From Pseudomonas paeninsulae (lineage in GTDB: Bacteria; Pseudomonadota; Gammaproteobacteria; Pseudomonadales; Pseudomonadaceae), in contig NZ_CP141799.1 of NCBI RefSeq assembly GCF_035621475.1, forward strand, positions 900,001 to 964,000: a DNA stretch of 64,000 nucleotides, given 5' to 3'. Position numbers and translations under genes: made by a program. Under the pieces are notes generated by a model, which was not told the origin of the DNA, searched no databases, and saw only the letters and a program-made list of their open reading frames with translations. Every line of letters starts with the position of its first letter. The first letter of the stretch is position 1. Of this stretch, positions 12,286-50,931 are shown one piece after another.

Positions 12286-12673
12286 TGGTGGAGCCGGGGG
12301 GATTTGAACCCCCGTCCGCCAGTACTCCGCTGTCGGTTCTACATGCTTAGCCGTGTCTACTGAGTTAACCCTTGGCCGCCCGACGGGCAGGGTGCTTTGG
12401 GCGAGTTGTGTAATTTTTAGCCACTTCGTCCACAACGTACTACGCGGCGATTCTGTTCTATATGACAATCATTTCGGGTTTACAGACATCCCCTAATGAT
12501 TGCTGGAGCCGAAGCTACCAGAAGTGCGACTAGGCTGCTTACGCAGCTAGTTGAGCACCGTAATTGTCATCATTGGCAATTATGGATTTTTGCAACAGTT
12601 TATTTACGAGTTCTGTTACCAACTCGGCATGCCCCTCGAGTTTTGCAACCGGCGTCGAATCCTAATCGGCCCC
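12286..12673 (-). ncRNA. ssrA: tmRNA (10Sa RNA)
   Basis: Read on the minus strand the RNA begins GGGGCCGATTAGGATTCGAC at 12673 and ends with the T-arm GGGGGTTCAAATCCCCC and GGCTCCACCA at 12286, the two halves forming the tRNA-like domain. The tag reading frame lies at 12539-12577 and encodes ANDDNYGAQLAA followed by TAA, a Pseudomonas-type degradation tag. Together with SmpB (encoded about 11 kb to the right) it rescues stalled ribosomes and tags the nascent protein. The 3' end serves as an attachment site for the neighbouring integrase element. Confidence 0.97.
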
Positions 12674-44879: not shown

Positions 44880-45635
44880 ATGCGTCGCCCCTTGGTAGCT
44901 GGTAACTGGAAAATGCACGGTACCCGCGCCAGCGTCGCAGAGCTGATCAACGGTTTGCGTCAGCAGGTGTTACCTGCTGACGTCGAGATGGCTGTCTTTC
45001 CGTGCTCTTTGCATGTCGCTGAGGTTTTCGGTGGTCTGGTGGGTACGGGTGTTACGGTCGGTGCGCAAGATTGTGCGGTCGATCCTGAACAAGGCGCTCT
45101 TACGGGTGAGGTCGCGGCCAGCCAGTTGCAGGATGTCGGCTGTGCCCTGGTGTTGGTTGGTCATTCGGAGCGGCGTTTGCTGCTTGGTGAGACCGATGCC
45201 GAGGTGGCGCGCAAATTTGCTGCTGCGCAGTCTTGTGGTTTGACGCCGTTGTTGTGCGTGGGTGAGACCCTTGCGCAGCGAGAGGCGGGCAAGACCCTCG
45301 ATGTTGTTGGTGCGCAGTTGGCCAGCGTTGTCGAAGCCCTGGGTATTGAGGCTTTTGCTCGGGCAGTCGTTGCCTATGAGCCGGTCTGGGCTATTGGTTC
45401 GGGTCTGACGGCGTCACCCGAGCAGGCGCAGCAGGTACATGCCGCTATCCGCGCGCAGTTGGCCGCGCAGAGTGCTGAAGTGGCGTGTGCGGTAAGAATT
45501 CTATATGGCGGCAGCGTGAAGGCCGCCAATGCAGCCGAGTTGTTCGGTATGCCAGATATCGATGGGGGGCTTGTTGGTGGGGCCTCTCTGAATGCGGATG
45601 AGTTCGGTGCGATTTGTCGCGCCGCAGGAAGCTGA
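44880..45635 (+). CDS. tpiA: Triosephosphate isomerase
   Basis: 251 residues. Catalytic Lys11 in AGNWKMHG, His in LVGHSERR, Glu in [11 protein letters not shown] (active-site loop follows), phosphate loop [12 protein letters not shown]. Interconverts dihydroxyacetone phosphate and glyceraldehyde 3-phosphate. Precedes secG by 4 bp. Confidence 0.98.
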
Positions 45636-45639
45636 CATA

Positions 45640-46020
45640 ATGCTGGAAACAGGCGTAGTAGTTATTCATCTGCTGGGTGCGATCGGTGTGGTTGCGCTGG
45701 TTTTATTGCAGCAGGGCAAGGGTGCGGATGCAGGTGCGTCTTTTGGTTCTGGTGCCTCAGGTACCGTTTTCGGTGGCCAAGGTACCTCTACCTTTTTGAG
45801 TCGCGTTACTGCTATACTCGCCACCGCTTTTTTCTTAACTAGCTTGGGCTTAGCGTTCTTTGCTAAAGAAAAGGCTGATGCGCTGACTCAGGTTGGTTTG
45901 CCTGATCCAGCGGTGTTGGAAGTGCAGCAGGTCAAGCCAGCTGTAGAAGATGTGCCCGTGCTCGAAGAGCAAAAGCCGGCTGTTGAAGCGGCTGACGTAC
46001 CTCAGGCTTCAGAGCAGTAA
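45640..46020 (+). CDS. secG: Preprotein translocase subunit SecG
   Basis: 126 residues from the ATG at 45640. Two membrane helices ([19 protein letters not shown] and [19 protein letters not shown]) separated by the conserved loop [21 protein letters not shown]-terminal tail rich in Val, Pro and acidic residues. Part of the SecYEG channel. Confidence 0.97.
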
Positions 46021-46045
46021 CAAGCAATGCGTAATATGTGATTTT

Positions 46046-46131
46046 GCCGAGGTGGTGGAATTGGTAGACACGCTACCTTGAGGTGGTAGTGGCCATAGGC
46101 TGTAGGGGTTCGAGTCCCCTCCTCGGTACCA
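46046..46131 (+). tRNA. tRNA-Leu (anticodon GAG)
   Basis: 86 nt, long variable arm, 3' CCA encoded. Anticodon loop TTGAGGT between CTACC and GGTAG; T-arm GGGGTTCGAGTCCCC; acceptor GCCGAGG/CCTCGGT. Class II tRNA reading CUC/CUU. Follows secG as in other Pseudomonas. Confidence 0.97.
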
Positions 46132-46136
46132 ATTTA

Positions 46137-46167
46137 CAAGAAAGCCCGCAGCATGCGGGCTTTCTTG
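46137..46167 (+). terminator. Terminator after tRNA-Leu
   Basis: CAAGAAAGCCCGC / GCGGGCTTTCTTG, 13-bp perfect stem, 5-nt loop; T-rich descending arm. Confidence 0.8.
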
Positions 46168-46182
46168 TTGCTGAAGCGCTGG

Positions 46183-46212
46183 TTGACCCTTGCGAGGGTT
46201 CGGTCGTATACT
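46183..46212 (+). promoter_or_regulatory. Sigma-70 promoter of the metY-rimP-nusA operon
   Basis: TTGACC (46183-46188) and TATACT (46207-46212) separated by 18 bp, followed after 16 bp by the initiator-tRNA-like gene. Close to consensus. Confidence 0.7.
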
Positions 46213-46228: not shown

Positions 46229-46307
46229 CGTGGGATGGGGCGGTCTGGTGGCTCGTCGGACTCATAATCCGAAGGTCGTTGGTTCAGCCAGAGTCCTCCC
46301 GCGACCA
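46229..46307 (+). tRNA. metY: Initiator tRNA-fMet-like gene (CAT), degenerate
   Basis: 79 nt in the metY position upstream of rimP. D-arm TCTGGTGGCTC and anticodon arm TCGGA-CTCATAA-TCCGA resemble tRNA-fMet (GTCTGGTAGCTCGTCGGG in the standard form). Departures: acceptor CGTGGGA/TCCCGCG pairs fully, giving C1-G72 where initiators have an unpaired 1:72; the third of the three G-C pairs in the anticodon stem is A-U; the T-arm segment after GTTGG is 14 nt (TTCAGCCAGAGTCC) instead of 12 and cannot form the normal 5-bp stem with 7-nt loop. Probably a pseudo-tRNA or a sequencing problem. Confidence 0.6.
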
Positions 46308-46312
46308 GCAGC

Positions 46313-46335
46313 AAAGCCCCTTTTCAGGGGCTTTT
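46313..46335 (+). terminator. Hairpin after the initiator tRNA gene
   Basis: AAAGCCCC / GGGGCTTTTT with a 6-nt loop. It separates the tRNA from rimP; it could terminate part of transcription or be a processing site. Confidence 0.7.
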
Positions 46336-46433
46336 TGCTAGCTGGGAGACAGATTTGCCGGTCTTTAGAGGTCGGTTAAAGGGATGGGCGTTTCGCCCAT
46401 TTTTCATTTGCACAGCATGCGCGAGGGGCTCAG

Positions 46434-46892
46434 GTGTCGAGCAAGCTAGAACAGTTGCAGGCCTTGGTGGCCCCGGTAGTCGAAGCACTCGGCTATGAAT
46501 GCTGGGGTCTCGAGTTCCTGTCGCAAGGGCGGCATTCTTTGCTGCGAATTTATATCGATCATGCCGATGGCGTTCTTATCGAAGATTGCGAGAAGGTCAG
46601 TCGGCAGATCAGTGGTGTCCTCGATGTTGAGGATCCGATCAGCGCGGAATACACCCTGGAGGTGTCTTCGCCCGGTATGGATCGGCCGCTGTTCACGTTG
46701 CAACAGTTCGCCAGCCATGCCGGCGAGCAGGTGAAAATCAAGCTGCGTTCGCCTTTCGAGGGGCGCCGTAACTTTCAAGGTCTCCTCCGTGGCGTGGAGG
46801 AACAGGACGTGGTGGTGCAGGTGGATGACCATGAGTTCCTGTTGCCGATCGACATGATCGACAAGGCCAATATTATCCCCAGGTTTGATTGA
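46434..46892 (+). CDS. rimP: Ribosome maturation factor RimP
   Basis: 152 residues from a GTG start. N-terminal alpha/beta domain ([48 protein letters not shown]) and the [21 protein letters not shown] signature (core [13 protein letters not shown]), then an Sm-like C-terminal domain. Needed for 30S maturation. First protein gene of the nusA-infB operon. Confidence 0.97.
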
Positions 46893-46939: not shown

Positions 46940-48421
46940 ATGAGCAAAGAAGTACTGCTGGTTGTTGAGTCGGTGTCCAACGAAAAGGGCGTACCGGCTA
47001 GCGTTATATTCGAGGCGCTGGAATTGGCCCTGGCCACTGCCACCAAAAAGCGTTTTGAAGACGAAGTCGAGTTGCGTGTGGCGATCAATCGCCAAACTGG
47101 CAACTATGAAACTTTCCGTTGCTGGACAGTGGTTGAAGAAGCCGATTTCGATGACCCTGCGCATCAAGTTACCGTTGATATGCCGCGGGCGATTGAAGCC
47201 AATGCGGCAGTCGGTGATGTGCTCGATGAAAAGATCGACTCCATCGAGTTCGGTCGTATTGCTGCGCAAACCGCCAAGCAAGTCATCGTGCAGAAAGTTC
47301 GCGAAGCCGAGCGTGCCCAGGTGGTTGAAGCCTACCGTGGGCGTTTGGGCGAAATCATCTCCGGCACTGTGAAGAAGGTGACTCGCGATAATGTGATCAT
47401 CGATCTGGGTAACAATGCCGAGGCGCTGCTGGCGCGCGAGGACATCATCTCGCGGGAAACTTTCCGCGTCGGTGCCCGGGTTCGTGCCTTGCTCAGGGAA
47501 ATTCGCACCGAGAACCGCGGTCCGCAGTTGATCCTCTCGCGTACCGCGCCGGAAATGCTGATCGAATTGTTCCGCATCGAAGTGCCGGAGATCGCCGAAG
47601 AGCTGATCGAAGTCATGGCTGCTGCGCGCGATCCTGGTTCGCGTGCCAAATTGGCCGTGCGCTCCAAAGACAAGCGTATCGACCCGCAAGGTGCCTGTAT
47701 CGGCATGCGTGGGTCGCGCGTGCAAGCAGTATCCGGCGAGTTGGCCGGCGAACGTGTGGATATCGTGCTGTGGGATGACAATCCCGCGCAGTTTGTGATC
47801 AACGCCATGTCGCCAGCGGAAGTTGCTGCAATCATTGTCGATGAGGATGCCCATGCCATGGACATCGCCGTCGGCGAAGACAACCTGGCGCAGGCTATTG
47901 GCCGTGGTGGTCAGAACGTTCGTTTGGCCAGTCAACTGACTGGCTGGACGCTGAACGTGATGACCGAAGCGGACATCCAGGCGAAGCAGCAAGCAGAAAC
48001 CGGCGACATCCTGCAGCACTTCATCGACGAGCTGGAAGTCGACGAAGAGCTGGCCCAGGTGTTGGTCGAAGAAGGCTTCACCAGCCTGGAAGAAATCGCT
48101 TATGTGCCGATGGAAGAGATGCTCAGCATCGATGGTTTTGATGAAGAAATCGTCAGCGAGCTACGGTCACGGGCAAAAGATCGCCTGTTGACCAAGGCCA
48201 TCGCCACAGAAGAAAAACTGGCAGACGCCCACCCGGCCGAAGACCTGCTCTCACTTGAGGGTATGGACAAAGGCTTGGCGCAAGAACTGGCAGTACGCGG
48301 TGTGGTTACCCGCGAAGACCTGGCCGAGCAGTCGATTGACGACCTGCTCGACATCGACGGCATCGACGCAGAGCGTGCCGGCAAGCTGATCATGGCCGCC
48401 CGAGCCCATTGGTTCGAGTAA
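46940..48421 (+). CDS. nusA: Transcription termination/antitermination factor NusA
   Basis: 493 residues from the ATG at 46940. N-terminal polymerase-binding domain, S1 domain (about 135-200; [18 protein letters not shown]), KH domains ([21 protein letters not shown] and [21 protein letters not shown] cores CIGMRGSR and IGRGGQNVR), then two acidic repeats at the C-terminus ([30 protein letters not shown]). Modulates pausing, termination and antitermination. Confidence 0.98.
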
Positions 48422-48447: not shown

Positions 48448-50931
48448 ATGACGCAAGTCACGGTGAAAGAACTGGCCCAAGTGGTCGACACACCGGTAGA
48501 GCGCCTGCTGCAGCAGATGCGTGAGGCGGGTTTGCCGCACAGCAGTGCCGAGCAAGTTGTTACCGATAACGAGAAGCAGGCTTTGCTTGCCCATCTCAAA
48601 AGCAGCCACGGCGTGAAGGTTGAAGAGCCGCGCAAGATTACCTTGCAGCGTAAAACCACCAGCACCCTTCGGGTGGCAGGTAGCAAGACCATCAGCGTTG
48701 AAGTGCGCAAGAAGAAAACCTTCGTCAAGCGCAGCCCTGAAGAGATCGAGGCCGAGAAGCAGCGTGAGCTGGCTGAACAGCGTGCGGTCGCCGAAGCGGC
48801 ACGGGTGAAGGTAGAAGAAGAAGCCAAGCGTCGCGCCGCGGATGGCGCGCAGGCTCAAGTACCTGGCGCCAAAGCTGACGAGACGACTGCAGCTGTAGCG
48901 GTTGCGCCGGTCGAGTTGCCGGTGGTCGCTGCAGTGGTTGAAGAGCGCAAGAAAGACGAACCGCGCCGTCCCGACAAACCGCGTAATGAAGATGCCGATC
49001 GTCGTGGTGATCGCAAGACCACCCAGCATCGTCCTGCGGTCAAGGAAAAGGCTCCGGCACCCCGTGTGGCGCCGCGCAGCGTCGACGAAGAAAGCGACAG
49101 CCATCGTCGTGGTGGGCGTGGCAAGTCCAAGCTGAAGAAGCGCAATCAGCATGGCTTCCACAGCCCGACTGGTCCGGTCGTACGTGATGTCGCCATTGGC
49201 GAAACCATCACCGTCGGTGAGTTGGCTCAGCAGATGTCGGTTAAAGCGGCTGAAGTCATCAAGTTCATGTTCAAGCTGGGCACTCCGGTGACCATCAACC
49301 AGGTACTGGATCAGGAAACTGCCCAGTTGATCGCCGAAGAGTTGGGCCATAAGGTCAAACTGGTCAGCGACAACGCCCTGGAAGATCAGCTGGCCGAGTC
49401 GCTGAAGTTTGAAGGCGAGACCTTCTCCCGTGCGCCGGTTGTGACCGTAATGGGTCACGTTGACCACGGTAAGACCTCGCTGCTCGACTATATCCGTCGC
49501 GCCAAAGTGGCTGCAGGCGAAGCCGGCGGCATCACTCAGCATATCGGCGCTTACCACGTCGAAACCGATCGCGGCATGGTCACCTTCCTTGATACTCCGG
49601 GCCACGCGGCGTTTACCGCCATGCGTGCCCGTGGTGCCCAGGCGACCGATATCGTGATCCTGGTTGTAGCGGCGGACGATGGTGTGATGCCGCAAACCAT
49701 TGAAGCGGTTCAGCATGCCAAGGCCGCCGGTGTGCCGCTGGTCGTTGCCGTGAACAAGATCGACAAGCCGGGTGCCGATCTCGATCGCATCAGAAGCGAG
49801 CTGTCCGTTCACGGTGTTACGTCCGAAGAGTGGGGCGGTGATACGCCGTTCGTTTCGGTATCGGCGAAAGTCGGTACTGGTGTTGACGATTTGCTGGAAG
49901 CGGTCCTGCTGCAAGCCGAAGTACTCGAGCTTAAAGCGACCCCGTCCGCTCCTGGTCGTGGCGTCGTGGTTGAGTCGCGTCTCGACAAGGGTCGTGGCCC
50001 GGTTGCCACCGTGTTGGTTCAGGACGGTACGCTGCGCCAGGGCGACATGATTCTGGTCGGCTCGAACTACGGCCGTATTCGCGCCATGCTCGATGAAAAC
50101 GGCAAGGCCATCAAGGAAGCAGGTCCGTCGATTCCGGTCGAGATCCTCGGTCTGGATGGCACTCCGGAAGCGGGCGACGAGATGAGCGTGCTGACCGACG
50201 AGAAGAAGGCCCGTGAAGTGGCCATGTTCCGTCAAGGCAAGTTCCGCGAAGTCAAGCTGGCCCGTGCTCACGCCGGCAAGCTCGAGAACATCTTCGAGAA
50301 CATGGGCCAGGAAGAGAAGAAGACGCTCAATATCGTCCTCAAATCCGACGTCCGTGGTTCGCTGGAAGCCTTGCAAGGCTCGCTCGGCGGCCTGGGTAAC
50401 GATGAAGTGCAAGTGCGTGTGGTCGGTGGCGGCGTCGGTGGTATCACCGAATCCGATGCCAACCTGGCGCTGGCCTCCAATGCTGTACTGTTCGGCTTCA
50501 ACGTGCGGGCCGATGCTGGCGCGCGCAAGATCGTCGAGCAGGAAGGTCTGGATATGCGTTACTACAACGTGATCTACGACATCATCGAAGACGTCAAGAA
50601 AGCTCTGACCGGTATGCTCGGCAGCGATGTTCGCGAGAATATCCTGGGTATCGCCGAAGTGCGTGACGTGTTCCGTTCGCCGAAATTTGGCGCGATCGCC
50701 GGTTGCATGGTGCTCGAGGGTATCGTGCACCGTAACCGTCCGATCCGCGTCCTGCGCGAAGACGTGGTTATCTTCGAAGGCGAACTGGAATCCCTGCGCC
50801 GCTTCAAGGACGACATGTCCGAGGTGCGTGCCGGCATGGAGTGCGGTATTGGCGTGAAGAGCTACAACGACGTCAAGCCTGGCGACAAGATCGAAGTGTA
50901 CGAAAAAGTCCAAGTGGCTCGCAGCCTGTAA
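48448..50931 (+). CDS. infB: Translation initiation factor IF-2
   Basis: 827 residues. N-terminal IF2-N domain, a long charged Lys/Arg/Glu linker (about 90-240), second IF2-N-like domain, then the GTPase: P-loop GHVDHGKTS, switch [12 protein letters not shown], followed by the beta barrels and the C2 domain that binds fMet-tRNA. Delivers initiator tRNA to the 30S subunit. The initiator tRNA gene of the same operon looks damaged. Confidence 0.98.

Follow-up and report, generated by a model that had tools for sequence, protein, structure and literature searches.

Upstream of three open reading frames that we take to be rimP, nusA and infB, the Pseudomonas paeninsulae genome carries a tRNA-like element at the metY position, preceded by an intact tRNA gene and a promoter sequence of its own and followed by two terminator-like hairpins (Table 1). 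The window analysed here is a 64,000-nt stretch of contig NZ_CP141799.1 (positions 900,001 to 964,000), and the locus was compared with its counterparts in other Pseudomonas genomes.

Table 1. Features at the head of the rimP-nusA-infB operon, numbered from the first base of the window
Feature	Position	Strand	Basis
tRNA-Leu(GAG), intact, upstream neighbour	46046..46131	+	ARAGORN; Rfam tRNA 53.2 bits
Sigma-70-like promoter of the metY-position element, TTGACC-18-TATACT	46183..46212	+	1 found, 0.1 expected in shuffles
Decayed initiator tRNA at the metY position (C1-G72, GGA/UCC, rearranged T-arm)	46229..46307	+	sequence, ARAGORN, Rfam, alignment
CAT anticodon, kept	46263..46265	+	sequence
Rearranged T-arm; possible TTGG-TTCAG-CCAG hairpin plus AGTCC	46278..46296	+	alignment, predicted folds
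Intrinsic-terminator-like hairpin GCCCC-GGGGC plus T-run, directly 3' of the element	46316..46336	+	1 found, 0.5 expected
Second hairpin ATGGGC-GCCCAT plus T-run, second stem of the rimP-leader match	46384..46405	+	Rfam alignment, sequence
rimP (presumed), GTG start	46434..46892	+	ORF; protein query in the relative search
nusA (presumed), MSKEV...	46940..48421	+	ORF, listed from 46889
infB (presumed)	48448..50931	+	ORF

The metY-position element and its surroundings

An earlier note on this DNA, made from the sequence alone, described a tRNA with the D-arm of tRNA-fMet and a CAT anticodon; in the sequence, the window copy retains this anticodon and an initiator-like body. The acceptor stem is fully paired, CGTGGGA (46229-46235) with TCCCGCG (46297-46303), hence position 1:72 is C-G as that note had it. 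A mismatch at 1:72 is a defining mark of bacterial initiator tRNAs, and the intact metY types have C1 or A1 with A72. The anticodon is flanked by GGA (46258-46260) and TCC (46268-46270), so the reported change from GGG/CCC is real, and the window copy lacks the full set of three anticodon-stem G-C pairs of a functional initiator. The A7-U66 pair is also found in 30 of the 143 metY genes called by ARAGORN and in four tandem fMet copies elsewhere in the genome, and therefore need not be damage. The element ends in ACCA (46304-46307), with the CCA encoded.

The T-arm was said to be 2 nt too long and unable to fold. Its net length is indeed +2 nt relative to the closest intact relative; in the alignment, bases have been both inserted and deleted, not just two added. 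A cloverleaf with a 5-bp T-stem and 7-nt T-loop could not be formed (ARAGORN, Rfam and alignment). A non-standard 4-bp/5-nt hairpin, TTGG-TTCAG-CCAG, is still possible in predicted folds. ARAGORN left 46229-46307 uncalled, its only calls over the 64-kb window being tRNA-Leu(GAG) and one tmRNA (12286-12673 on the minus strand, tag ANDDNYGAQLAA). The Rfam tRNA model (RF00005) gave 26.1 bits at 46229-46307, below its cut-off of 29. Judged by cloverleaf score, the element is not a normal variant.

The promoter, described beforehand as intact, was recovered in our scan, while the hairpin directly downstream of the element is weak as a scan hit (Table 1). A match to the Rfam rimP leader (RF01770) spans 46282-46405, beginning inside the T-arm of the element and including the first hairpin, but at 35.7 bits it falls below the gathering threshold of 47. 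Between tRNA-Leu and the metY promoter lies a perfect hairpin, AAGAAAGCCCGCA-GCA-TGCGGGCTTTCTT (46139-46170), with sub-threshold Thr_leader matches on both strands; most simply, it would be a bidirectional terminator of the tpiA-secG-tRNA-Leu unit.

Redundancy and close relatives

Four intact fMet genes of one identical sequence stand in tandem elsewhere in the genome (C1:1613410-1614091), each scoring 64.1 bits with Rfam and called Met(CAT) by ARAGORN. The window copy is thus redundant, which supports the suggestion of the earlier note that a pseudogene is tolerated here because other fMet copies exist. In the 38 genomes that we searched for fMet, each had at least one match outside the metY locus, and the 19 among them with a decayed metY had one to four further fMet genes each. 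Judged by eye over these 38 genomes, copy number separated no clear groups with and without metY, and extra copies were not discernible as a trigger. Diverged fMet-like sequences also occur away from metY (G243:C34:12961-13036; G004:C2:136763-136837; two copies at 92% on G096:C56), and these may be further copies in decay or remnants of tRNAs.

A second genome of the species, Pseudomonas sp. CC6-YY-74 (NZ_CP019947.1; locus L065), was the best match in the RimP search of named genomes, and the identical sequence under G402 is labelled as the same species. It carries the same T-arm rearrangement and the same A72G change as the window copy. The earlier note had raised an assembly error as one option; we reject it, since an independent genome shares both changes, and the chance that assembly or sequencing error explains the odd element is negligible. 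The CC6-YY-74 anticodon stem has a G-G mismatch: position 30:40 is G-G there and A-U in the window copy. We considered and dropped a compensatory change in the window copy, given this G-G in CC6-YY-74 and the occurrence of A7-U66 in intact genes.

The window and CC6-YY-74 differ at 45 of 3456 bases, four of them within the 79-nt element (binomial p=0.019). All four, a small number, fall in tRNA-stem sites and none elsewhere, the outcome that unconstrained decay would give. We first took the element for a cluster of rapid change in the species, on 4 of 89 element sites against 0 of 282 chosen flank and four-fold sites (p=0.003), but no longer rely on this, because the p-value over all 3456 bases is only 0.019 and other differences cluster upstream. 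Of the 45, 34 lie in the ~1.1 kb at 44972-46037, perhaps a recombined stretch.

In the nearest genomes listed (G245, G243 and G103; 95-96% identity over rimP-nusA), metY is intact, and its sequence there matches distant members at 100% identity and the tandem-array type at 95%. Such a pattern argues against metY having been restored in these three genomes by gene conversion from the array. The aligned relatives show no sign of integration at the locus. The window copy therefore shows two marks of a tRNA pseudogene, redundancy with four identical intact genes and an intact tRNA at the same position in relatives (G245, G243, G103 and others; Met at 143 of 181 loci).

Could the element still be an unusual but functional tRNA, either initiator or elongator? 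Its CAT anticodon, paired acceptor stem and encoded CCA are what such a tRNA would keep, but the absent ARAGORN call, the 26.1 bits, the missing standard T-arm and the G-G mismatch in the CC6-YY-74 anticodon stem make this very improbable. Because the standard T-arm fold is impossible, and both the C1xA72 mismatch and one of the three anticodon-stem G-C pairs are gone, we consider that tRNA function has been lost. Altogether, we read the window copy as a redundant initiator-tRNA pseudogene at the operon head, lying inside the operon leader (probability about 0.85). With the tandem array supplying intact copies, transcription from its own promoter would still make the element the structured beginning of the rimP-nusA-infB leader, and the majority of transcripts would presumably end at the first terminator. 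The locus would persist while the tRNA decays, since the promoter and terminators belong to the operon leader. In the window strain the element sequence appears to drift; residual function or structural selection is nevertheless possible, given that promoter, anticodon and acceptor pairing are kept and that A-U is restored at 30:40.

Recurrence and pattern of metY decay in Pseudomonas

We gathered 234 loci with a recognisable rimP start, of which 181 remained after duplicate removal; the RimP protein query alone returned at least 80 loci at 82-99% identity. ARAGORN called Met at the metY position in 143 loci and found no fMet in the other 38 (35 with no tRNA, two with "Thr-CGT" and one with "Asn-GTT"). 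The 38 of 181 is no frequency, as the sample is biased, being drawn from the nearest relatives, from named genomes found through RimP and from weak matches picked on purpose. Of the 398 genomes in the comparison of relatives, 60 are unscored; locus L223 had too little upstream DNA to be used, G244 was left out, and L103 and L239, whose contigs have equal length, probably represent a single genome. L058, L066 and L207, although called Met, are visibly decaying and stand outside the 38.

On a rimP-nusA tree, the 38 loci without an fMet call require 18 state changes. The tree comes from a quick method, and because support is low on some branches, such as the one placing P. xionganensis next to the P. 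peli group, the true number of losses may be somewhat lower. With 38 of 181 loci lacking fMet and 18 changes on the tree, metY loss appears easy in this genus. A lenient promoter pattern and a terminator-like pattern are present in all 38 decayed loci. In the P. fluvialis group (L091, L092, L096) and Pseudomonas sp. GOM6 (L103), metY is eroded to 59 and 55 nt; flanked by the same promoter and terminator, these elements would be late stages of the same decay.

Decay follows a recurrent pattern. T-loop length is altered in 10 of the 12 alignable lineages (the exceptions being G312 and G168/PA27), and changes recur most often at the two final positions of the anticodon loop, A37 in eight and A38 in seven of the 12. 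A G at position 38 can pair with C32, which would close the anticodon loop. Transitions dominate (70 against 13 transversions in nine early lineages), with A>G far above T>C on the sense strand: 38 against 4 in the early lineages, 41 against 5 at cloverleaf-unpaired sites of the 12 lineages (p=7e-7), and 16 against 1 at those that the present fold also leaves unpaired. Single changes within cloverleaf pairs kept the pairing 28 times and broke it 24 times.

This spectrum suggests that a strongly transcribed tRNA gene, once freed from selection, may simply gather sense-strand A>G and C>T changes, possibly through transcription-associated deamination of the non-template strand, and that these incidentally raise G-U pairing. 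The flanks are much more even. By parsimony over a 39-leaf clade, A>G against T>C is 30:31 upstream and 18:30 downstream, and transitions to transversions are 129:101 and 104:78. In E. coli mutation accumulation, the per-base substitution count of tRNA genes is described as roughly double that of other genes (PMC8510543), in line with such mutation-driven decay. Against it, A and T sites differ in their tRNA roles and the changes recur at few positions, the upstream flank leans slightly the same way (p=0.014), paired sites show no significant excess of C>T over G>A (p=0.10), the 12-clade counts cover only clades that could be aligned, and most of the tRNA indel excess is ascribed in that same source to four genes with long runs (PMC8510543). 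We regard this account as credible, with the odds somewhat against it.

Possible fold retention and relation to known systems

The other possibility is that the element is already a functional, structured leader RNA, the tRNA body having been exapted as the 5' part of a terminator-regulated rimP-nusA-infB leader under selection for its fold only. Most decayed elements have stable predicted folds (z-scores from -3.4 to +0.8, median -1.4), several of them as a long rod rather than a cloverleaf (e.g., L014, L054 and L222). Counter to plain pseudogene decay, the folds of several decayed lineages are better than those obtained when changes of matched spectrum are scattered at random; in these predicted energies, the combined p is 0.020 for 12 lineages, 0.0075 for the nine early ones, and 0.0009 when the flank spectrum is used. 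Among sites unpaired in the cloverleaf, 43 of the 72 that changed are now in a pair, against 185 of the 498 that did not change, uncorrected for the easier pairing of G and U. The promoter- and terminator-like sites at all 38 decayed loci also fit a retained leader.

The P. peli group argues for structure. Its nine sequences keep acceptor, D, anticodon and T stems with short loops, 97.9% of 234 pair cells are standard, and TTGA-like ends replace CCA in most of the nine. On the tree, 40 tRNA-stem sites took 10 changes and 37 other sites took 38, a rate about four times slower in stems (p=0.0007). Using one member's fold, the counts are 17/52 for paired and 35/37 for unpaired sites, with reference rates of 62/65 at rimP four-fold sites and 74/96 in the upstream spacer. 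In this group, stems appear constrained, loops free and the tRNA end lost, and the remnant is probably held under selection for its stems, as a structured leader RNA. Covariation does not exceed the shuffle control: one of 26 pairs changed on both sides, and shuffles equalled or exceeded this in 447 of 500 cases. With P. xionganensis added, two of 24 pairs changed on both sides.

Elsewhere the evidence runs against a leader role. For the window copy by itself, the predicted fold gains nothing over the same changes scattered at random (p=0.22), and each of the four differences from CC6-YY-74 falls at a stem site. In four other decayed clades pooled, the window lineage included, stem and other sites showed no contrast (10/160 versus 6/148, p=0.45), and the element shows no slowing relative to its flanks in the turukhanskensis-like and G351/G305 clades. 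In the latter clade (L222 and L219), the element folds as a long rod, with z=-2.6 in L222 and -0.05 in L219, and it changes faster than the upstream flank (14/89 versus 5/92). Together with the covariation result and the use of predicted energies in the fold test, these data leave the leader-RNA account arguable but short of probable. The earlier note's further option, a tRNA on the way to another role, thus finds no backing in the window copy but does so at the same locus in the P. peli group.

A broader proposal is that Pseudomonas operon-head initiator tRNA genes have repeatedly left translation and become structured leader RNAs that no longer decode. The T-loop would be deleted, the anticodon loop closed by a new 32:38 pair and CCA lost in one group, while the old tRNA stems, or a long rod-like hairpin of the same sequence, would be kept ahead of the terminators that control nusA and infB. 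We consider this rather unlikely; if true, it would be a recurrent, datable conversion of a tRNA to a regulatory RNA at one locus.

This one locus shows an initiator tRNA lost many times, apparently independently, at stages that range from a few changes to heavy erosion, alongside intact sister species. Two questions thereby become testable: which mutations, and with what strand bias, a strongly transcribed bacterial tRNA gene collects when it is no longer under selection, and whether the operon making NusA and IF2 can keep a dead tRNA as its structural leader RNA. In practice, fMet counts and metY annotation are not transferable between Pseudomonas species. In the literature searched, outside which most subscription papers fall, neither decay of metY in Pseudomonas nor a rimP leader derived from a tRNA is reported. 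Dead tRNA copies are commonplace; we know of no earlier description of an operon-head tRNA that is lost repeatedly and whose stems one group still keeps.

Work on other bacteria gives some context for such a loss. In E. coli, metY is described as a minor initiator gene that is not essential for growth (PMC6511841). Loss of an initiator gene copy is said to be able to help in poor media (PMC9981150, citing Samhita 2014), and deletion of metZWV is reported to impair growth (PMC11480407). The rimP leader of enterobacteria is characterised as attenuator-derived and ProQ-associated (PMC5391140), and thus a structured, metY-derived leader RNA is plausible.

Among the closest known systems is E. coli metY (tRNA-fMet2) in metY-rimP-nusA-infB, which resembles the locus described here in operon place, upstream promoter and terminators before rimP; there, t1 and t2 are described between metY and rimP, with RNase III sites in the transcript (PMC6511841). 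Further initiator genes lie in tandem elsewhere in both, but E. coli metY encodes a working initiator tRNA, whereas the window copy is broken. The RF01770 rimP leader likewise has two hairpin and T-run stems upstream of rimP; however, it excludes the tRNA part, and the window match is sub-threshold. Bacterial tRNA pseudogenes and fragments, such as the attR remnants of integrative elements, are described as similarly degenerate and as missed or flagged by tRNA finders (PMC9897764). Unlike those attR-type fragments, the element described here is a native tRNA that decays in place, within its operon.
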